DNA of 64,000 nt from Haloarcula marismortui ATCC 43049 (GTDB lineage: Archaea > Halobacteriota > Halobacteria > Halobacteriales > Haloarculaceae). Position 1 is the stretch's first letter; each line of letters begins with the position of its first letter. Position numbers and translations under genes: made by a program. The notes below the pieces were generated by a model. The model was not told where the DNA came from. It ran no database searches and worked only from the letters and a program-made list of their open reading frames with translations. The stretch spans positions 992,001-1,056,000 of the forward strand of contig NC_006396.1 of assembly GCF_000011085.1 (NCBI RefSeq), given 5' to 3'. This document shows, piece after piece, positions 35,844 to 47,947 of this stretch.

Positions 35844-37073
35844 ATGGCGCTGAGTCGGCGACAGTTCGTCGGTGCCGCAGCCGGGACAGCGGCGCTGGCC
35901 GCGACCGGCACGGCGACAGCACAGGAGGAACCGGACTACGGCGGCTGGTTCGACGACGTTTCGAACTACGACGGGACCGTCGACAAGCGAGGCCAGGACA
36001 CCGTGACAATCACCGTCGGCGCGCAGGGCAACAACGGCGCGTTCGCCTTCGACCCGCCCGCGGTGATGGTCAGCCCAGGTACAGAGGTTGTCTGGGAATG
36101 GAACGGTGAAGGCGGCGGTCACAACGTCGTCTCGGACGGCGACGGGCCACTTGATTCCGGGAGCCCGGTCAGCGAGGCCGGAACGACCTACAGCCACACC
36201 TTCGAGTCGGAGGGAATGTTCAAATACGTCTGTGTCCCTCACGAAACGCTCGGGATGAAGGGTGCCGTCGTCGTTCGGCCCGGTGGCTCCGGTGACGGCG
36301 GCTCCGGCGGACAACAGCAGCAAGGCCCACCCGAGAACCCGGATTACGGCGGCTGGTTCGACGATGTTTCGAACTACGACGGAACGACCGTCGACAGGAC
36401 CGACGCTGACAGCGTCGAGATATCGGTCGGCGCACAGGGCAACAACGGCGCGTTCGCCTTCGACCCGCCAGCGGTTCGGGTGACACCCGGCACCGAAGTG
36501 ACGTGGACCTGGACCGGTGAAGGCGGCGGTCACAACGTCGTCTCGGACGGTGACGGCCCGCTTGAGTCCGGTGACCCGGTCAGCGAATCCGGGACCACAT
36601 ACAGCCATACCTTCGAAGAGATGGGCGTGTACAAGTACGTCTGTACACCCCACGAATCGCTCGGGATGAAGGGCGCTGTCGTTGTCGGTGGCCCGCTTGA
36701 TGGTAGCGGTGGCGGCAGTGGGGGCGAAAGCGGACAGGAGGGTGGCGGTATCGAACTCTCCGGCCCGCAGTGGCTTCTCTCAGGCTCGGTCCTGCTGGCG
36801 TTCTTCTCGCCGCTGCTGTTTGCCGTTGCGATGCGACGCCGCCAGAACGGGCGGCCGCCACAGATGGGTGAAGGTGGCGAACTGCAGCGGGCAACCGGCC
36901 CGGAGCCGGTTGAAGAGGCTGCAGAGACTGAACCGGCCGTTGAGCTGGGCCACGACGAGTACGACCCGAAGGGAACAGCGGCGCTGGTCGCCTTCTACTT
37001 CGTGTTGATCGGCCTGCTGTGGGTGTTCATGTACTTTGTCGAGTTCCTTGGCCGTGTCTCAATAATCGGGTGA
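35844..37073 (+). CDS. Two-domain halocyanin with C-terminal membrane hairpin
   Basis: A 409-aa exported copper protein. The Tat signal is MALSRRQFVGAAAGTAALAA. Two halocyanin (plastocyanin-like) domains follow, about residues 30-145 and 160-285, each with the copper ligands GGGHNVVSDGDGPL and YVCVPHETLGM or YVCTPHESLGM. A Gly/Ser linker leads to two membrane segments (about 305-330 and 375-405). It probably donates electrons to the CuA site of the oxidase encoded directly downstream. The near repetition of the two domains suggests gene-internal duplication. Confidence 0.9.
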   Translation: MALSRRQFVGAAAGTAALAATGTATAQEEPDYGGWFDDVSNYDGTVDKRGQDTVTITVGAQGNNGAFAFDPPAVMVSPGTEVVWEWNGEGGGHNVVSDGDGPLDSGSPVSEAGTTYSHTFESEGMFKYVCVPHETLGMKGAVVVRPGGSGDGGSGGQQQQGPPENPDYGGWFDDVSNYDGTTVDRTDADSVEISVGAQGNNGAFAFDPPAVRVTPGTEVTWTWTGEGGGHNVVSDGDGPLESGDPVSESGTTYSHTFEEMGVYKYVCTPHESLGMKGAVVVGGPLDGSGGGSGGESGQEGGGIELSGPQWLLSGSVLLAFFSPLLFAVAMRRRQNGRPPQMGEGGELQRATGPEPVEEAAETEPAVELGHDEYDPKGTAALVAFYFVLIGLLWVFMYFVEFLGRVSIIG

Positions 37074-39915: not shown

Positions 39916-41187
39916 TCACCCGTCGACAGGGTTGCCACAGGACGGACAGGTGTCCGCGTCGGGCGGCAGCGACTCGCCGCACTCGCTACAGTACGACTGC
40001 CCGGCGTCCCGGCCGCCCGGCGTGAAGACGGACGTATCATCCATCCACGCTTCGTCGGTTGCTGAAGCAGCCTTATTCGTATCGTCGGGCCCCGCTGTCT
40101 CCGAATCAGTGTCTGTCCCGCTGTCGTCACCCGCCGTTTCCGGTTCTTCCCCACTATCCGATGACTGCGCGTTGTCCGGTGCCGATTCGTGAGCGGGCGG
40201 TTCCGCCGCCGGGACCTCGTCGGGCGAAAACACTCGGGTCCCGGTGTGTCCCGGTGACTCTTCGTCGCTACCAGTATCTGCGGTGTCAGCCCTGTCCCCA
40301 GTCTGTTCCCGAGAGTCTGATTCAGCGTTGACAGTCCGCTCGGCAGTTGGACGCTCGGTGCCGCTTTCCGCCGTCCTGACCGGTGGCATAATCGGGAATC
40401 GCTGGTCCGGACGGCGCTGCGGGTTCGAAAGCGGCGCGCGAATTCTGACGACGGTCCCGGCGAGCAGCTGGAAGAAGAGGTACGCACTCGCCAGCACACC
40501 CGGGACGGCAACTAACAGGGGTGTGGCCTGTGCTGGCTGGACACCGGTCAGTTGGAGCGCTGTTTCAACCACGGGACTGATGCCAGTCTGGGTCAGCCAC
40601 GGGGACAGCGCCGACAATACGCCTGGTGCGGTGACCGTCTGGACCAGCCACCCAGTACTAAGCGAGACTGCGCTTACAAACACCAGCAGCGACAGGAATG
40701 TGGGGACCGAAAGTGTGTACACGCGGTGGCCGTACGCGACGGTCCGGACGACCAGATGCACTGTTCCGAACAGTGCAATCACCGTGAGCGGGCGTCGCTG
40801 ACCGAGAATGAGACTTACCAGCAGGCAGCCAAGGAGCACACTGCCGGGGATAGCGAGCAACACACTCGGGTGGTCCAGCCGATACGCGTCGGCAAGGTTG
40901 CCGTGCCTGTTCCGGAGCCGTCGGTTAATGAGGACGACGGTCGCCAGTGACGGACCGACGAGCCAAAGACCGCCGGCAAGCACAGTGCGTAGCGAAACAG
41001 TTCGGCCAGCAAGTGTCACAAGAACAGTTTGTTCGAGTCCCGAGAACTGCGCCAACAGCAGCCCCGTCGCAAGCACCCAGCCACCGTAGACGAGCCATGC
41101 CAGACCGACACCCACAAACAGCCAGGTTTCAGTTCGCAGTAGTGCAGCGGACTCGCGGAGTTCCAACCCCAGTCGACCACGCTCCAT
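39916..41187 (-). CDS. Multi-span membrane protein with C-terminal zinc ribbon
   Basis: A 423-aa protein. About seven hydrophobic segments fill residues 20-245. A long acidic Ser/Thr/Glu-rich region (about 255-395) follows, ending in a zinc ribbon, YCSECGESLPPDADTCPSC. The Ser/Thr-rich cytosolic tail is a plausible substrate for the kinase encoded upstream. It is the last of five same-strand genes (40 bp after the FHA gene). The convergent oxidase operon ends five bases away. Function unknown. Confidence 0.72.
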   Translation of the reverse strand: MERGRLGLELRESAALLRTETWLFVGVGLAWLVYGGWVLATGLLLAQFSGLEQTVLVTLAGRTVSLRTVLAGGLWLVGPSLATVVLINRRLRNRHGNLADAYRLDHPSVLLAIPGSVLLGCLLVSLILGQRRPLTVIALFGTVHLVVRTVAYGHRVYTLSVPTFLSLLVFVSAVSLSTGWLVQTVTAPGVLSALSPWLTQTGISPVVETALQLTGVQPAQATPLLVAVPGVLASAYLFFQLLAGTVVRIRAPLSNPQRRPDQRFPIMPPVRTAESGTERPTAERTVNAESDSREQTGDRADTADTGSDEESPGHTGTRVFSPDEVPAAEPPAHESAPDNAQSSDSGEEPETAGDDSGTDTDSETAGPDDTNKAASATDEAWMDDTSVFTPGGRDAGQSYCSECGESLPPDADTCPSCGNPVDG

Positions 41188-41227
41188 CAGCCTGATATTT
41201 TCCGACCGACCGCTTAATTGTGGGTGG

Positions 41228-42361
41228 TCACGCCGCCCGAATCGTCATCGTCACAACACCTGACAGTTCGAGTTCATCGCCCGGTTGGATCGGTTCCCGG
41301 TCGCCTTTCTGCAACTGGGTCTCGTTCAGCCGCGTCGGGTTGTCCCCGAGGTCGACCAGATAGTATCCTTCCGACTGGCGGTCGAACCGGACGTGTTCGC
41401 GGTGGATTCGAACCGCTTCGTCTTCCGGTCGCCCGGCGTCCAGTAGCGCTGCCCGGATCTCCCGGCCGATGCGGTCCCCGTCCTCAACAGTGATGTCTCG
41501 ACCCTCGACCGAGAGGACGAGTTTGTCCGGTACGGTTGCGTCATCGGTGGACTGTGACGCGAGTGTGTCGACGGCGTTACCCGTAGCTGCTGACTCACTC
41601 TCTGTCTCAGCGGTAGTTGCCGACCCTGCTGTCGAATCAGCCGTCGACGTGTCACGCCCGCCACGATGTGCGTCTAAATCCTCCCCACAGTTGACACAGA
41701 AACTGGCGTCGTCGTCGACAGCGGTGTCACAGGACGGGCACGCGTCAAGCGACCCGTCGTCCCCCGGTGTAATGTCCTGTACGTCGGCACCGCAAGCGAC
41801 ACAGAAATTCGCGTCGGCGTCGAGTTCGCGGTCACAGTCCGGACAGGTAATCGTTGCCGAATCGTCATCTGCCTCCTGAGTTTCGTCGAATATCTCGTCG
41901 TCCCCATCGGAGTCACTGCTTGGCTGATCCGGCGTGTCGTCGGCCTCGTTGTGTTCTCTCTCGGTGTTCGGCTCGGCCTCAGTGTCGGCTTCCATTTCGT
42001 GTTCCGTCGCCGTCTCCGTCGTCCCCACCGTCTCGTCTTCGGCCTCGGGTGCCCCAGTGTCCGAGGCCGCATCCGCCGATGCTTCGTCGTCGCTATCATC
42101 GTCGACAGTGTTCCCACCCGGGGTGTCGGCTTCGCCGCTAGCCGCCACCGACCGGCCATCCATCGGGTCCGCCTCGTCCGTGCCTTCCGGTATCAGGTCA
42201 GCGTCGTCCGGCACCCCATCGTCAGTCTCAAAATCAGCAGCGCTTTCGTCGGTGTGTTTCCACTCACCACAGTCCGGGTTTGTGCACCATCCGCCCGCGA
42301 CTGTCGGATCAAAGTCCTCGTCGCATATGGGGCATTTTACCGTGCGGTCGGATTCAGGCAT
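41228..42361 (-). CDS. Zinc-ribbon protein with C-terminal FHA domain
   Basis: A 377-aa soluble protein. An N-terminal zinc finger (CPICDEDFDPTVAGGWCTNPDC), a ~120-residue acidic linker, two further zinc ribbons (CPDCDRELDADANFCVAC and CPSCDTAVDDDASFCVNC), and a C-terminal FHA-like domain (about 285-375; EHVRFDRQSEGYYLVDLGDNPTRLNE). The FHA core lacks the usual clear GRxxxxDI and SxxH motif pair, so phospho-Thr binding is uncertain. Position between phosphatase and membrane gene suggests it reads the kinase's products. Confidence 0.8.
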   Translation of the reverse strand: MPESDRTVKCPICDEDFDPTVAGGWCTNPDCGEWKHTDESAADFETDDGVPDDADLIPEGTDEADPMDGRSVAASGEADTPGGNTVDDDSDDEASADAASDTGAPEAEDETVGTTETATEHEMEADTEAEPNTEREHNEADDTPDQPSSDSDGDDEIFDETQEADDDSATITCPDCDRELDADANFCVACGADVQDITPGDDGSLDACPSCDTAVDDDASFCVNCGEDLDAHRGGRDTSTADSTAGSATTAETESESAATGNAVDTLASQSTDDATVPDKLVLSVEGRDITVEDGDRIGREIRAALLDAGRPEDEAVRIHREHVRFDRQSEGYYLVDLGDNPTRLNETQLQKGDREPIQPGDELELSGVVTMTIRAA

Positions 42362-42421
42362 GGATTTCGTTAGGTCCTACAAAGTCGAGAAATAAAATAC
42401 TTGTCCCACGAAACTTTCTCT

Positions 42422-43630
42422 CTATTCGTCTGTCATAATCACTGTGTCACGTTCGGAAATATCGAGGTCCGGATCGATATCTCGAACTGGCATCCCACCG
42501 CTTTCCGGTGTTTTCGGGAGCGCACTGTCAGCAAACAGGAGCACGGAGATGTTGTCTTTCCCGCCGCGGTCGTTTGCCAGTGATACGAACTCTCGACTCG
42601 CCGCATCGAGGGACGATGCACCAAGGACCACGTCACGGATTTCCTCGTCGGTGACGACCTCGTCGCGGATACGCTCGGCCACCGACTCGGCGTGGTCCGA
42701 ATCGACGTACTCTTCGTACAGTTCCGGCGCATCGGTCTGTGCATCGATGAGTCCGTCGCTGGTCGCCAGCACCGTGTCTTCTTCGTACAGCCGGACCGTT
42801 CGCGTGTCCACCCCGACAGTCGCCTCGTCAGGGTCCTCGTAGCCGGACCCGCCCAGCGCGCGTGTGATTTCGTTCCCGTTGGGGTGGACGTGCGCCTCCA
42901 CAGGGTCGATTTCGTCGCTGTCAACCCATTCCTGAACTACGGCGTGGTCTCTGGTCAACGGCGAAATCGTCTCACGGGCACTGTTGACGACGTAGGCTCG
43001 GCTATCACCGACCCAGCCGTAATGGAGTTTGCCGTCGGCGTAGATCCCCGCGACAACTGTCGTGTAGGACTGTGTCCCGGTCTCGTTTGCGTACCTGATA
43101 ATCTCGCGATGGGCCGCCGTAATCGCCTCCGCCACGGCAGTTTCGAGTTCCCGTTCACCGGGCGGGTCCGGCAGGACATCACGGGCCACATCGACATCGA
43201 AGTCACCGGGATAGCTCCGGGCCGTTCGGATCGCCACAGGAGCAAGGTGTTCGGCCACGATAGTCGTCGTGATGTACGACGCGATGTCGCCGGCGTCGTG
43301 CCCGCCGGCCCCGTCAGCGACAACGAACACGCCGGCCGAGCGGTTCATCGGTTGTCCGCTGCCATCGGTTTCGGACGTATCCGCGTCGTCAATGTCAGCA
43401 CCGTCCGTGTCGGCAGCCGTATACGCCGCCGTCTCAGTACCGGCTGTCTCGTCTGTCGCATCCGCCGTCTCGCTGTCGTCTGCTGTGGCTGGGTCCTGCG
43501 ACTGGGGTCTGTCTTGCCCGCGGTAGCCGTCCCGATGGCCCTCCTCGAACACCGTCAGCGAGACGCTGTCCTCGTTGATGCCCTGTCCTCGCTTCCTGTC
43601 GCCGATGTCGTAGTTCGTGCTGTATCTCAT
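42422..43630 (-). CDS. PP2C-family protein phosphatase
   Basis: A 402-aa PPM/PP2C phosphatase with Mn/Mg-binding motifs in order: GINEDS near residue 18, VVADGAGGHDAGD near 107, GWVGDSRAYV, LATSDGLID and GGKDNISVLL. A ~70-residue acidic low-complexity insert lies between the first and second motifs. It should remove phosphate from Ser/Thr. Its start overlaps the kinase stop by four bases, so writer and eraser are made together. Metal-binding Asp residues all appear intact. Confidence 0.9.
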   Translation of the reverse strand: MRYSTNYDIGDRKRGQGINEDSVSLTVFEEGHRDGYRGQDRPQSQDPATADDSETADATDETAGTETAAYTAADTDGADIDDADTSETDGSGQPMNRSAGVFVVADGAGGHDAGDIASYITTTIVAEHLAPVAIRTARSYPGDFDVDVARDVLPDPPGERELETAVAEAITAAHREIIRYANETGTQSYTTVVAGIYADGKLHYGWVGDSRAYVVNSARETISPLTRDHAVVQEWVDSDEIDPVEAHVHPNGNEITRALGGSGYEDPDEATVGVDTRTVRLYEEDTVLATSDGLIDAQTDAPELYEEYVDSDHAESVAERIRDEVVTDEEIRDVVLGASSLDAASREFVSLANDRGGKDNISVLLFADSALPKTPESGGMPVRDIDPDLDISERDTVIMTDE

Positions 43631-44865
43631 GACTCCTCCGGATGGAACTCGAACGTGACCCCGTAGGTCGGATGAACCAGCGACACCAGATCGCCGTCAG
43701 TCAGTGTCACTGACTCGGGGGGCACATCACCGTGTCTGTCGGTCGGGTCCTCGCCCTCAGAGCGCAGGCGGTTACGTCCGGGTTCAGAGAGGACCCGCTG
43801 CCAACCAGCCCCTTTCTGGACGAACGTCCCGTTGAGACTCCGGTCGTGGAGAGACCACTCGCCGTCCTCGATATCGAACTGTACCTGCACCGAGGAGATG
43901 TACTCTCCCTGTGGGTCTTCGATTGTTATCGATGCCGGGGGGCCGCTTGCGCCCTGTCGCCCGATAGTGTCGCCCGGTTCGACAGTGAACTGCCTGTTCG
44001 CCTGAATGTACGTCACCGACGCCGTCGCGGGCGGCGTTGGATCTCGTCGTTCGAGGACCTCTTTGAGGACGGTCGCGTTCCGGTATCGGTCGCGGTAGTG
44101 TGACTGCGTGGCCCGCTCGACAATTTCAGCCAGATAATCGTCGCAGTCGGCCCCAAACGCCTGCGGGTTCACGCCGTCCTTTTTCGGAACGCTCCCTTTG
44201 AGCAGGAACAGGAGGATTTTTCCGATCGAGTACACGTCCGACCAGGGGCCCTGCCGAACGTCGGTTCGGCTGGCTTCAGCGACTTCCCGGGGCTTGAACG
44301 GCCCCAGAATCGTTGTCCCGGTGTTCCCGGAGGACGGGTCCTCCGTCGCATCGAACCCCGTCGCCGTATTAAAGTCGATCAGCGTGGGCGTGATATCGGG
44401 CGTGAGCATCACGTTCTCGGGTTTCAGGTCCCGGTAGACGATCTCGTTTTCGTGAAGAAACCCCATCGCGTCACAGAGGTCGATACCGATCTGGCGGACC
44501 TGCTCGCTGTCGTCGATCGGGCCGTGCTGGTCGATGACTTCGTCGAGCTCGATCCCGTCGACAATTAGCTGGACGACCAGAAATGGAACGTCACGCTCTG
44601 TGACCTGGTCGTAGTAGTCCATCACGTTCTCGTGGCCGCCGGCCCGGCGGATACGTTCCAGCGAGCCGACCTCCTTTTTAAAATACTCCTCGATGATGTC
44701 GGGGTCGTTCTGGGATTCGGTGTAGTTGGGGTATTTAACGGCGACAGACTCGCCAGTCTCGGTGTCTTTAGCGCGGAACGCCTTTGCGAACCCTCCTTTG
44801 CCGAGGAATTCCGCAAGTTTGTACTGGCCGGCGATGACATCACCGCTCTCAGGTTCCCAAGTCAT
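43627..44865 (-). CDS. Ser/Thr protein kinase with C-terminal FHA domain
   Basis: A 412-aa soluble Hanks-type kinase. Gly loop LGKGGFAKAF (21-30), ATP-binding Lys44 in VAVKYP, catalytic YRDLKPEN with Asp146, metal-binding Asp164 in LIDFNTATG (DFN in place of DFG), and WSDVYSIGKIL. The FHA domain (about 295-405) has the recognisable SLNGTFV strand and GRQGASG. There is no membrane segment, unlike bacterial PknB. Part of the vWA-kinase-phosphatase-FHA operon. Confidence 0.92.
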   Translation of the reverse strand: MTWEPESGDVIAGQYKLAEFLGKGGFAKAFRAKDTETGESVAVKYPNYTESQNDPDIIEEYFKKEVGSLERIRRAGGHENVMDYYDQVTERDVPFLVVQLIVDGIELDEVIDQHGPIDDSEQVRQIGIDLCDAMGFLHENEIVYRDLKPENVMLTPDITPTLIDFNTATGFDATEDPSSGNTGTTILGPFKPREVAEASRTDVRQGPWSDVYSIGKILLFLLKGSVPKKDGVNPQAFGADCDDYLAEIVERATQSHYRDRYRNATVLKEVLERRDPTPPATASVTYIQANRQFTVEPGDTIGRQGASGPPASITIEDPQGEYISSVQVQFDIEDGEWSLHDRSLNGTFVQKGAGWQRVLSEPGRNRLRSEGEDPTDRHGDVPPESVTLTDGDLVSLVHPTYGVTFEFHPEES

Positions 44866-44921
44866 TAATTACCCGTTTCTCCGGCCAGTAGCGGCCTTGC
44901 CGACACCGCAGATTGGGACAG

Positions 44922-46106
44922 TCACTTCTGGATGCCCTCGTCAGTGACAATTTTCGTCGCCCTGTTTTGCTCCTTGCGCCCGCCTTCCATCACGATACGC
45001 GTCTCTCGCTCTGCTGTCTGGACGGCCTCGGTGTCCTCGCCGTGGATGCGCGTCATCCGCTCCAGTTGTGTCTGGGCTTCGGCGACGTTGCCCTTGCCGA
45101 GTTCCGTCTTGATAACGGTCTGCCGGTGGTCCACATCGACCTGTTCGTTGTGTTCTGCCAGTTTCGACTCGTCGTCGGTGTAGTCGACGGTGATTGATTC
45201 CCGCGTCGTCTCGCCGCCGGCGTGCAGTGTGACATCCGCCAGGGACACAGCGTCTTGCGGGTCGTTAGCCGGAGCGTGTATCTTTAGCACGACCCGCTGG
45301 GTCTCCCGGTCAAGCAGGTCGGGCAGCGGCACGACGGCCGTGTTGTCCTCCCAGTCGGGGTTCACGGACTGCGTCTGTGGGAGTGAGCGGTACACCTCGC
45401 TCACCTCAACGCCGTCAGCCACGTCGAGTTCGAGACGAGCGTCGGGAGCGACAACGGTCCCGGCCTCCTCGACTGCGTCGCCGAAGAACGACTCGATGTC
45501 ACCGGCAGCATCCAGATGTGTCCATTCGCCGCGGGCAACGGTCCCGAGCGTCCGGATCGTCTCCTCGCGGTAGTCGCTCCCGATGCCGGCCGCCTTGATT
45601 CTGATACCCTCAGTGTCGATTTCGCGAGCTAGCGTCCCGAACGCTTCCGGGTCGTGGGAGTTGTCCTTCCCGTCAGAGAGGAGCAGGACCCGCCGGGCCG
45701 TGTTGTCGTCGGTCGGTAAATCCTGCAGGGACGCCTTCGCTTCCAGCAGGCCGCTGTACATATCAGTGCCCCCGCCAGCAGAGATGTCAGCGACCGCGTC
45801 TACTGCCGTTTCGCGCGAAATAGTGCCCCACCGCGTCGGCGCAAGTACTGTCGTAACCTCGTTGTCGAAGGCGATGATCGAGACGTAGTCGTCCTCGTCG
45901 AGGAGTCCGAACACCCACTCAGCGCCGGCACGTGCCTGCTCGATGTCGTTACCGGCCATCGACCCACTGGCGTCGATACAGAGGGCAATCTGTCGCGTGG
46001 GTGGTTCCTCCAGCCGTCCGGGCTCGACTTCGATTTCAGCAGTCAGTTTCGCCCCGCCCGTCGGCACGTAGGGTCGGTTGACCTCGCTCACGACAGTAGC
46101 GGTCAT
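44922..46106 (-). CDS. vWA (TerY-like) domain protein
   Basis: A 394-aa soluble protein. The von Willebrand A domain spans about residues 38-215, with a complete MIDAS: CIDASGSM (DxSxS), GGGTDMYSG (Thr) and LLLSDGKDN (Asp). A beta-rich domain and a C-terminal charged helix follow. Likely a metal-dependent protein-binding scaffold. First gene of the operon; a TATA box lies at 46132-46139 with an inverted repeat just upstream. The kinase gene starts 56 bp after its stop. Confidence 0.9.
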   Translation of the reverse strand: MTATVVSEVNRPYVPTGGAKLTAEIEVEPGRLEEPPTRQIALCIDASGSMAGNDIEQARAGAEWVFGLLDEDDYVSIIAFDNEVTTVLAPTRWGTISRETAVDAVADISAGGGTDMYSGLLEAKASLQDLPTDDNTARRVLLLSDGKDNSHDPEAFGTLAREIDTEGIRIKAAGIGSDYREETIRTLGTVARGEWTHLDAAGDIESFFGDAVEEAGTVVAPDARLELDVADGVEVSEVYRSLPQTQSVNPDWEDNTAVVPLPDLLDRETQRVVLKIHAPANDPQDAVSLADVTLHAGGETTRESITVDYTDDESKLAEHNEQVDVDHRQTVIKTELGKGNVAEAQTQLERMTRIHGEDTEAVQTAERETRIVMEGGRKEQNRATKIVTDEGIQK

Positions 46107-46131
46107 ACTGGTAGATGGGTCGTACGGAGTA

Positions 46132-46139
46132 GTTATATG
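46132..46139 (-). promoter_or_regulatory. TATA box of the vWA-kinase-phosphatase-FHA operon
   Basis: CATATAAC on the minus strand, about 29 nt before the ATG of the vWA gene. The expected transcript is leaderless or nearly so. It abuts the 7-bp inverted repeat at 46141-46159, which occupies the BRE position. Confidence 0.55.
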
Positions 46140-46140
46140 T

Positions 46141-46159
46141 TTCCCTCAAATCGAGGGAA
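46141..46159. repeat. Inverted repeat upstream of the vWA gene
   Basis: TTCCCTC (46141-46147) and GAGGGAA (46153-46159) pair perfectly around AAATC. On the minus strand it is preceded by a T-run. It overlaps the BRE position of the vWA promoter, so it could be an operator; alternatively the T-run serves as terminator for the upstream gene ending at 46228. Confidence 0.45.
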
Positions 46160-46227: not shown

Positions 46228-46842
46228 CTACGCTACCTGTTGCGCCGTCTCGACTCGACTCCCGACCCAGAGAAGGGTTCCGAGTAGTGCCACGACAGTG
46301 AGGGGGAGGAGCCACTGGAACAGCGAGAGAAGCCCAGCGCTTGCCTGAATACCGACAACGAGCAGGATAGTGGGGCCACAGCAGGCAAACCCGGAAAGCA
46401 GTCCTGGTAGTCCCGACATAGCCCCTGCACCCGGGCCGAGACGGCAGGCCGATGGGCCGCGCCACGCGACGATGGAGACAGCGAGGTTGAGTCCGACCAG
46501 CGCTGCCAGAACTGCCCCGAGAAGCATATTCAGCGGCGCGACGAGCAGTTCGACCGGGCCGACGACCACCAGTGCGATCGGTTCCCACTGGAACGGGCCA
46601 ACCTGCCGGAACGCACGGACAAGCGGGTTACTGACGACAGACACCTCGTATCCGGACGGGCCGAAGCCGAGATGTCTGAGGCCAGCGAGATACAGCAGGA
46701 AGTACGCCAGTCCGGACACACTCAGAGACACCCGTCCGTCACGGCGGCTGAGCGCCCCGCTGACCGCAACTACAGTGTTCCGAAACAAGCGTTGGACGCT
46801 GGCAGCTGCACCTGCCCCGTCGGTCGGGCTGTCAGTTGACAT
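46228..46842 (-). CDS. Uncharacterised multi-span membrane protein
   Basis: A 204-aa protein from MSTDSPTDGAGAAASV with about five hydrophobic segments. The region SGFACCGPTILLVVG contains a Cys pair inside or next to a membrane helix, which might bind a metal or form a disulfide. The 5' end overlaps the DUF3179 gene by 11 bp, so the two are one transcription unit and may act together at the cell surface. Family not recognised. Confidence 0.72.
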   Translation of the reverse strand: MSTDSPTDGAGAAASVQRLFRNTVVAVSGALSRRDGRVSLSVSGLAYFLLYLAGLRHLGFGPSGYEVSVVSNPLVRAFRQVGPFQWEPIALVVVGPVELLVAPLNMLLGAVLAALVGLNLAVSIVAWRGPSACRLGPGAGAMSGLPGLLSGFACCGPTILLVVGIQASAGLLSLFQWLLPLTVVALLGTLLWVGSRVETAQQVA

Positions 46843-47947
46843 ACCCACTCTCCGGATAGAAGCCGGCCCAGGCGAACCACATCGCGTCGAAAGACAGCGT
46901 GCGGTCCAGCGGGAGCGAATCGGCATCATATGCCGTCCCGTCGATCATGTAGCCGTCGTCCGACGCTGCAACTGACATCGATTCTGGGTTCGCGTACACG
47001 TACCCGCTGGCGAGGTTGGTATCGGCGACCGCGACGTACGGTGTGTCGTCGATACGGCCGGTCAGCACGCGCTGACGCAGCAGTGTTTCCTTGTCGAACG
47101 CGAGTCCCCCGGTTTCAGTCCGGGTCCCGATGACGACAGCCTTCGGGTGAGCGCGACTGTCGCTGTGCAGGGGTTCGAACAGTGTCCGGGTGCTCGAATA
47201 ATAGCCGCGCTTCTCGTTGTACTGGCCGTACGGGTCGACACCGTAGCGCCGCGAGAAGCCGGTGTCTTCGGTGAGGATGCGTGTCTCCGGGTACGCGCTG
47301 GACCAGCGGCTCCATGTCGTCCAGATGACCCGGAACTCCCGCAGCGACTCGCCAGTTAATGGGCCCGTAATCGCTGTCGCCAGCATCTGTGGCCACCAGC
47401 TGTCAGTGCCCCGGTCGTACATCGTCAAATTCGAGTTCACAAGCCGCCCTGAGACGCCGAACTCCACTGGACCACGCTCGAACCCCTGTGCGGTGCCCGT
47501 CAGCGGACAGTACGTCACGGCGACGGGGTCGCCGGCGATGGTGTCGTTCACGATCTCGTGGTGAACGAGAATGTACTGCGGGTAGGCTTTCGCCTCCCCG
47601 TTGCGGACCACGCCGAACACCGGGTCGTCCGGGGCTAATCCGTCCGGGGGCGTATCCGCAAACGTCGGGTCGTCGATGGCTGGAATCCCGTCTTTGGGAA
47701 CACCACCGCTGACGATATTCTCTTCGAGTGTCCCGATCTCGTAGTCCAAATGCAGGCGGCTATCAGTTGTGGGTGGTTCTGAGCCGTCGTTCCGATCAGT
47801 TGCCATCGACGCCGTGCTGGTTCCAGTGCTGGAGTCGGGTTCCGAACCACCTCCAGCGGTAGCACCCTCATCCCCAACACAGCCTGCGCCGCCGAGCGTC
47901 ACACCGGCCCCAACTGTCGCAAGAAATCGTCGGCGGGAAATCCTCAT
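46832..47947 (-). CDS. DUF3179 lipoprotein
   Basis: A 371-aa exported protein from MRISRRRFLATVGAGVTLGG with a twin-arginine lipobox signal (GGAGC). DUF3179 hallmarks: DDPVFGVVRNGEAKAYP, LVHHEIVNDTIAG, VAVTYCPLTGTAQGFER and LYDRGTDSWWPQ-like MYDRGTDSWWPQMLA. The family is widespread and uncharacterised; the conserved Cys and His suggest redox or metal binding on the outer face of the membrane. Overlaps the downstream membrane-protein gene. Confidence 0.9.
   Translation of the reverse strand: MRISRRRFLATVGAGVTLGGAGCVGDEGATAGGGSEPDSSTGTSTASMATDRNDGSEPPTTDSRLHLDYEIGTLEENIVSGGVPKDGIPAIDDPTFADTPPDGLAPDDPVFGVVRNGEAKAYPQYILVHHEIVNDTIAGDPVAVTYCPLTGTAQGFERGPVEFGVSGRLVNSNLTMYDRGTDSWWPQMLATAITGPLTGESLREFRVIWTTWSRWSSAYPETRILTEDTGFSRRYGVDPYGQYNEKRGYYSSTRTLFEPLHSDSRAHPKAVVIGTRTETGGLAFDKETLLRQRVLTGRIDDTPYVAVADTNLASGYVYANPESMSVAASDDGYMIDGTAYDADSLPLDRTLSFDAMWFAWAGFYPESGYVN

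Follow-up and report, generated by a model that had tools for sequence, protein, structure and literature searches.

Within a 64,000-nucleotide stretch of the Haloarcula marismortui ATCC 43049 genome (contig NC_006396.1, positions 992,001 to 1,056,000; hereafter the window), five consecutive minus-strand genes encode a vWA protein, a Hanks-type Ser/Thr kinase, a PP2C phosphatase, a zinc-ribbon-FHA protein, and a membrane protein. We propose, at a probability of roughly 0.6, that this operon encodes a self-contained phosphothreonine switch, a haloarchaeal variant of the ArnA/ArnB kind, and that its products assemble a membrane-tethered complex. The proposal is based on gene content, intact catalytic and metal-ion-dependent adhesion site (MIDAS) residues, conserved gene order, a fold match to ArnB, and conserved motifs, from which we infer phosphorylation, FHA binding, membrane recruitment, and a physiological output. 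Few Ser/Thr signalling circuits have been assigned in haloarchaea, and archaeal FHA proteins have been stated to be conserved in Crenarchaeota only (PMC10470591). Here, one operon brings together a kinase, a phosphatase, readers, a scaffold, and a possible client in the membrane, offering a comparison point for the origin and general job of the Sulfolobus Arn switch. ArnA/ArnB, TerY-P, and haloarchaeal FHA proteins near ESCRT genes (PMC11188069) were already known; the tail motif T-x-[IVL]-hydrophobic is new here, and in the open-access literature we found no paper on the Haloarcula-type haloarchaeal operon or on the membrane-protein motif.

The five proteins and their likeness to ArnA and ArnB

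An earlier, sequence-only reading had called five minus-strand genes with intergenic gaps of 56, −4, 60, and 40 bp and had named their domain types, all of which was borne out by open reading frame coordinates and by Pfam. The first gene (44922..46106) encodes P0001, a 394-residue vWA protein (Pfam VWA, E = 2.5e-15) that runs from N-terminal strands through a vWA domain and a beta-sandwich to C-terminal helices. Its MIDAS residues are intact (D45/S47/S49, T114, and D145). The top PDB sequence match of P0001 was 8S05 chain A (E = 2e-9), which is Sulfolobus acidocaldarius ArnB in the ArnAB structure (PMC12852372). Profile-profile comparison (hhalign) aligned the haloarchaeal vWA proteins with Sulfolobales ArnB at a probability of 99.6; the alignment spans 318 columns, beginning with the N-terminal strand and reaching as far as the C-terminal helices. 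An AlphaFold2 (AF2) model of P0001 (mean pLDDT 86) contained N-terminal strands, the vWA domain, the beta-sandwich, and three C-terminal helices. With this model, Foldseek placed 4FX5 (a Catenulispora vWA protein), 8S05, and 5A8J in the lead (E = 1e-25 to 7e-18; the rest 1e-15 and weaker), and both 8S05 (E = 4e-25) and 5A8J were matched over the whole chain. AF2, Foldseek, and hhalign thus recover in P0001 the ArnB fold, a beta-sandwich split by a vWA domain and followed by a C-terminal helical domain; global TM-scores of ~0.6, with root-mean-square deviations >7 Å, indicate that its domain arrangement differs from the matched structures.

These results redirect the comparison. The sequence-only reading took bacterial TerY-P and type VI secretion as the closest comparators, but vWA sequence, profile, and structure point to ArnB, and TerY-P kinases do not carry FHA domains; it also overlooked ArnA/ArnB, an archaeal system in which Hanks kinases and a phosphatase are already combined with a zinc-ribbon-FHA protein and a vWA protein. 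What defines a TerY-P triad is the combination of vWA, PP2C, and Ser/Thr kinase genes, and its kinase has a zinc ribbon or OB-fold at the C-terminus (PMC11090510). A triad of this type, used in metal sensing or phage defence and extended by two genes, would agree with the adjacent, co-linear, and co-encoded trio found here and with the intact MIDAS. However, the kinase C-terminus is an FHA domain, not a zinc ribbon or OB-fold, and the scaffold carries ArnB-like extra domains. Among solved vWA proteins, ArnB is closer to P0001 than most others are (TerY itself was not directly compared), PADLOC had no match for the vWA or PP2C protein, and no Ter, restriction, or DNA-processing genes were found in the flanks examined. 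We consider such a triad quite unlikely.

The remaining soluble proteins supply the other parts of a switch. P0002 (43627..44865, 412 residues) combines a kinase domain (Pkinase, E = 1.9e-28) with a C-terminal FHA domain (E = 5.2e-6). Kinase residues K44, E65, D146, N151, and D164 are present, with HRD replaced by YRD and DFG by DFN, and R303, S324, and N345 of its FHA domain are invariant in the alignment. The phosphatase P0003 (42422..43630, 402 residues), whose gene overlaps the kinase gene by 4 bp, matches PP2C_2 (E = 1.1e-10; also PP2C) and retains D21, D106, D292, and D359; the Stp1 model gave E = 3.5e-42, yet under that model's cut-off. P0004 (41228..42361, 377 residues) has three four-cysteine zinc ribbons, an acidic linker, and a C-terminal FHA domain (DZR, E = 6.7e-12; FHA, E = 7.2e-7), in keeping with the ArnA architecture of N-terminal zinc ribbon, flexible linker, and C-terminal FHA. 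Its zinc-ribbon cysteines and FHA residues R300/H323/N341 are invariant in the alignment, and a PDB sequence search with P0004 returned no match. In searches of the whole genome (4,274,642 bases, 9 contigs), P0002 was the sole Pkinase match above the Pfam cut-off and P0003 the sole PF13672 match, so that the circuit should be definable with one or two gene deletions and phosphoproteomics. The Pfam FHA model found no match in the genome and missed the operon's own two FHA domains as well, so we make no claim on FHA uniqueness. Domain content, intact catalytic motifs, and conserved gene order give good support to the earlier idea of a writer-eraser-reader circuit.

In Sulfolobus, ArnB is phosphorylated by ArnC, which leads to higher ArnA/B complexes that PP2A dissociates (PMC7472852). 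The ArnA zinc ribbon contacts ArnB before phosphorylation and the ArnA FHA domain binds afterwards (PMC12852372). The ArnB threonines that are phosphorylated and read by this FHA domain lie at its C-terminus. An operon of arnA and arnB had been predicted before (PMC4858521), and ArnB-like structures have also been noted in Halorubrum (PMC12852372). The Haloarcula operon shares with this system, including ArnC/ArnD and PP2A, a zinc-ribbon-FHA reader, a vWA/beta-sandwich/helical scaffold, a Hanks kinase, a phosphatase, and gene clustering. By contrast, its phosphatase is a PP2C, whereas PP2A of Sulfolobus belongs to the PPP family; its kinase is co-encoded and fused to FHA, while OB and TPR-like regions are what ArnC contains. 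Further differences are three zinc ribbons in P0004 against one in ArnA, the additional membrane protein with a TRVF motif, and candidate phosphosites of the form TxPhiPhi (Phi, hydrophobic) in place of ETTRR. Haloarchaeal ESCRT-associated kinases and phosphatases also occur with an FHA protein (arCOG13166), but in that protein FHA shares a chain with a CdvA-like domain (PMC11188069), whereas the FHA domains here are fused to zinc ribbons or the kinase; no Vps4 or ESCRT-III genes were recognised beside the Haloarcula operon.

Gene order across haloarchaea and in distant lineages

Our family sample comprised 57 genomes, 22 of which had kinase matches (one, G029, with weak kinase-domain matches alone), and we read gene order from stretches of at most 20 kb surrounding the good kinase matches. 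Two arrangements emerged. In type 1, the order is vWA-kinase-PP2C, with the trio contiguous in most loci and followed by the zinc-ribbon-FHA and membrane genes in Haloarcula and several more genera. In type 2, seen in other families and some Haloarcula relatives, it is zinc-ribbon-FHA, vWA, kinase, PP2C (sometimes with FHA), and in some cases a second kinase, often with a membrane protein alongside. Type-2 PP2C frames (L070-L076, L078) often extend into sequence that matches the kinase's FHA part, and type-2 loci often combine kinase-FHA, PP2C-FHA, and zinc-ribbon-FHA proteins, frequently with a second kinase.

Across 194 haloarchaeal genomes, full-length kinase-FHA was found in 26 and full-length vWA in the same 26. 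The two genes were adjacent in 27/27 loci, separated by −1 to 165 bp (Fisher p ~3e-29, uncorrected for relatedness). The sequence-only reading had named a lack of conserved order in other genomes as grounds for refuting it; instead, the order recurs across genera, and kinase and vWA stand together in 26/26 genomes. Three more genomes had a long vWA match without this kinase; ArnB-like vWA proteins without a matching kinase-FHA lie at G084:C5:140877-142031, G087:C1:1644076-1645080, and G081:C1:2219871-2220995. All 12 sampled Haloarcula genomes contained the operon, and the four whose flanks were read had the same neighbours, with kinase and vWA identities of 96-99%. Flanking genes were constant within Haloarcula and of another set in several other genera, suggesting that the unit is passed on as a block and has no fixed partner. 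We therefore rejected the flanking genes as functional partners; common to Haloarcula alone or replaced elsewhere, they look like inherited context.

This distribution also bears on whether the genes form an anti-phage module of the kind seen in PD-T4-6 or KKP, both built on kinases. The kinase scores E = 6e-36 with PADLOC PD-T4-6 models, presence is patchy (26/194 genomes), and type-2 loci often pair two kinases with a phosphatase. However, the PD-T4-6 matches probably reflect generic kinase-domain similarity, and we set them aside on that ground. The operon's presence in every sampled Haloarcula, with constant neighbours in the four read, is unlike a mobile island. KKP comprises two kinases and one phosphatase, whereas type 1 has one kinase, although many type-2 loci have two. 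Anti-phage defence is accordingly a very unlikely role. Separately, in each of two regions (L080, G025:C2, 727-18128; L082, G029:C1, 1939-17927), several genes for kinase domains are scattered over less than 20 kb and have HEAT-like or PP2C genes as neighbours; these are a different kinase-rich system.

In type VI secretion, PpkA, PppA, and Fha1 (a kinase, a PP2C, and an FHA protein) control assembly via phosphothreonine. The Haloarcula operon shares these three parts, but no secretion genes were seen beside it. Could it nonetheless regulate a secretion or contractile injection machine? One divergent relative, L059 (G027:C33, 2722-7024), adjoins sheath (PF04984/PF17482) and Pvc16_N genes, and the TagH model is weakly touched by the FHA domains. 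However, L059 was the single such case among the loci looked at, no secretion structural genes occurred among the operon neighbours examined, and the TagH scores of 21 and 17 bits against a cut-off of 120 mean that the FHA proteins are not TagH members. PF14065 had no match in the genome, though the search's control gave none either. We rejected the link that L059 had suggested for the Haloarcula operon, and we hold a role in such machines to be very improbable. The earlier statement that secretion genes do not accompany the circuit stands beside the Haloarcula operon but fails for this divergent relative.

Related clusters occur farther afield. In five Sulfolobales loci (L033, L111-L114), arnA, a PP2A-like metallophosphatase-type gene, and arnB are clustered with the phosphatase in the middle, and the cluster genes overlap in L033 (4248-7035); no phosphatase gene lies between arnA and arnB in L115-L117. 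A thaumarchaeal locus fetched with an ArnB piece (L034, 2673-7325) has vWA, two zinc-ribbon-FHA, kinase, and PP2C genes consecutively, and one from Dehalococcoidia (L035, 4098-9179) encodes a kinase-PP2C fusion, a vWA, a zinc-ribbon-FHA, and a kinase. Distant lineages therefore share the Haloarcula parts list, again grouped about a vWA protein of ArnB-like type. The thaumarchaeal vWA protein contains TTVI ahead of a C-terminal zinc ribbon.

Threonine motifs, the membrane protein, and the proposed switch

The fifth gene (39916..41187) encodes P0005, a 423-residue protein with approximately six transmembrane helices by hydropathy, a Ser/Thr-rich acidic tail, and a C-terminal zinc ribbon (Zn_Ribbon_1, E = 3.4e-6); its AF2 model was poor (pLDDT 44). 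Six type-1 genera have the membrane gene co-linear or close by, and many type-2 loci have a counterpart in their flanks. This other membrane protein, near most type-2 loci, likewise has transmembrane helices, a Ser/Thr-rich tail, a T[RQ][VI][FY] motif, and then a zinc ribbon, which was the only part to align in profile comparison with type-1 membrane proteins.

Threonines in TxPhiPhi context recur in the tails of three of the proteins. The vWA C-terminus carries TRIV (T369) and TKIV (T384) at 44946..45002 as candidate phosphothreonines, and T369 is invariant in 16 alignment rows. Within the C-terminal 90 residues of the vWA protein, T-x-[VIL]-[FVILMY] was present in 14/16 orthologues (38 matches vs 5.8 expected from composition shuffles). 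The PP2C C-terminus matches at TVIM (T396, 42434..42445), with 8 matches in 16 orthologue tails vs 1.1 expected from shuffles, and membrane-protein tails gave 15 vs 0.6. P0005 itself has TRVFSP (T317, 40222..40239), a conserved TR[VI][FY] copy before the zinc ribbon, and TSVFTP (T385, 40018..40035), a second copy found in all five Haloarcula-genus rows. All type-1 membrane proteins had TR[VI][FY] (5/5 genera tested plus L052; shuffled expectation 0.0075), and 7/7 type-2 membrane proteins had T[RQ][VI][FY] (0.008 expected), a narrower pattern fitted after these proteins were seen and compared with shuffles that do not allow for shared ancestry. Because the general motif was set before the type-2 proteins were examined, the 7/7 is an out-of-sample check. 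The general motif had zero matches in the scanned parts of the FHA-containing C-terminal portion of the kinase and the P0004 linker region. Genome-wide, TRVF[ST]P had one extra match, in an apparently spurious frame, and revealed no further clients.

FHA domains typically bind phosphothreonine with a preference for a hydrophobic or acidic residue at +3, and the GarA phosphosite continues V-F, like TSVF in the Haloarcula membrane protein. We read the conserved TxPhiPhi threonines as putative phosphothreonine docking sites for FHA domains, and the candidacy of the membrane protein as the circuit's target gains support from its conserved TR[VI][FY] motif. GarA/OdhI with PknB/PknG in Actinobacteria similarly uses a phosphothreonine motif (ETTS) in an unstructured tail that is read by FHA (PMC5448819). 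However, GarA binds its own site intramolecularly, and its system includes no vWA protein or membrane client.

In the switch that we propose, P0001 would serve as ArnB-like phospho-scaffold and P0004 as ArnA-like reader. P0002 would be the kinase and, through its FHA domain, a reader as well; P0003 would erase; and P0005 would be both membrane anchor and client. The kinase would phosphorylate T-x-[IVL]-hydrophobic threonines in the C-terminal helices of the vWA protein and in the membrane-protein tail, with the PP2C tail perhaps a further substrate. The FHA domains of P0002 and P0004 would then dock on these phosphothreonines, building a kinase-scaffold-reader complex at the membrane, which would disassemble as PP2C strips the phosphates. 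The P0004 zinc ribbons may hold it on the scaffold before phosphorylation, as with ArnA on ArnB.

Alternatively, the membrane protein may be incidental and the module may repress archaella or pili transcription on starvation or damage. The scaffold and reader are of the same kind as ArnA/ArnB, known repressors of archaellum genes (PMC6509490, PMC12852372); ups pili are likewise repressed by SisArnA (PMC10470591). Yet no archaellum or pilus genes were found among the neighbours examined, and the membrane gene's recurrence at type-1 and type-2 loci, together with motif conservation, argues for a client role. We regard this output as unlikely. More broadly and only tentatively, a system of ArnB-like vWA, zinc-ribbon-FHA, kinase, and PP2C may be spread through archaea (haloarchaea and Thaumarchaeota, with Sulfolobus Arn derived) and extend to Chloroflexota; in haloarchaea, a membrane protein dedicated to the system would offer its pTR[VI][FY] tail for the assembly of a membrane-anchored phospho-complex not described before.

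Several observations weigh against a membrane-tethered, ArnA/ArnB-like switch. For P0001, Pfam matches up to E 0.1 were to VWA-type families alone, and ArnB_C was not among them. Likeness between the FHA domains of P0004 and ArnA was weak (54 columns, probability 82), as is orthology, and the P0004 domain has His at a contact position that is Ser in most FHA domains. The P0002 kinase reads DFN where DFG is expected. In some type-1 genomes (L043, L046, L053, and L056), the zinc-ribbon-FHA or membrane gene is absent or distant, and the divergent vWA proteins L058 and L059 show no motif within the final 90 residues of the part that was aligned. Moreover, the type-1 motif was spotted post hoc with shuffle statistics uncorrected for relatedness, and we found no phosphorylation or binding data for the five proteins.

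Promoter region and neighbouring genes

A TATA-like box (46131..46140, minus strand) ~30 bp 5′ of the first ATG possibly marks a leaderless promoter, judging from the bases themselves. Directly upstream of it in the window lies an inverted repeat, CCCTC-GATTT-GAGGG (46143-46157), a possible operator. A sixth minus-strand gene lies in the flank (46228-46929) but is outside the conserved unit. The operon is flanked by cox genes, DUF3179, and an esterase. Upstream of the cox genes, the window also encodes a halocyanin-like protein (35844-37073) with a tandem-duplicated domain starting YGGWFDDVSNYDGT.

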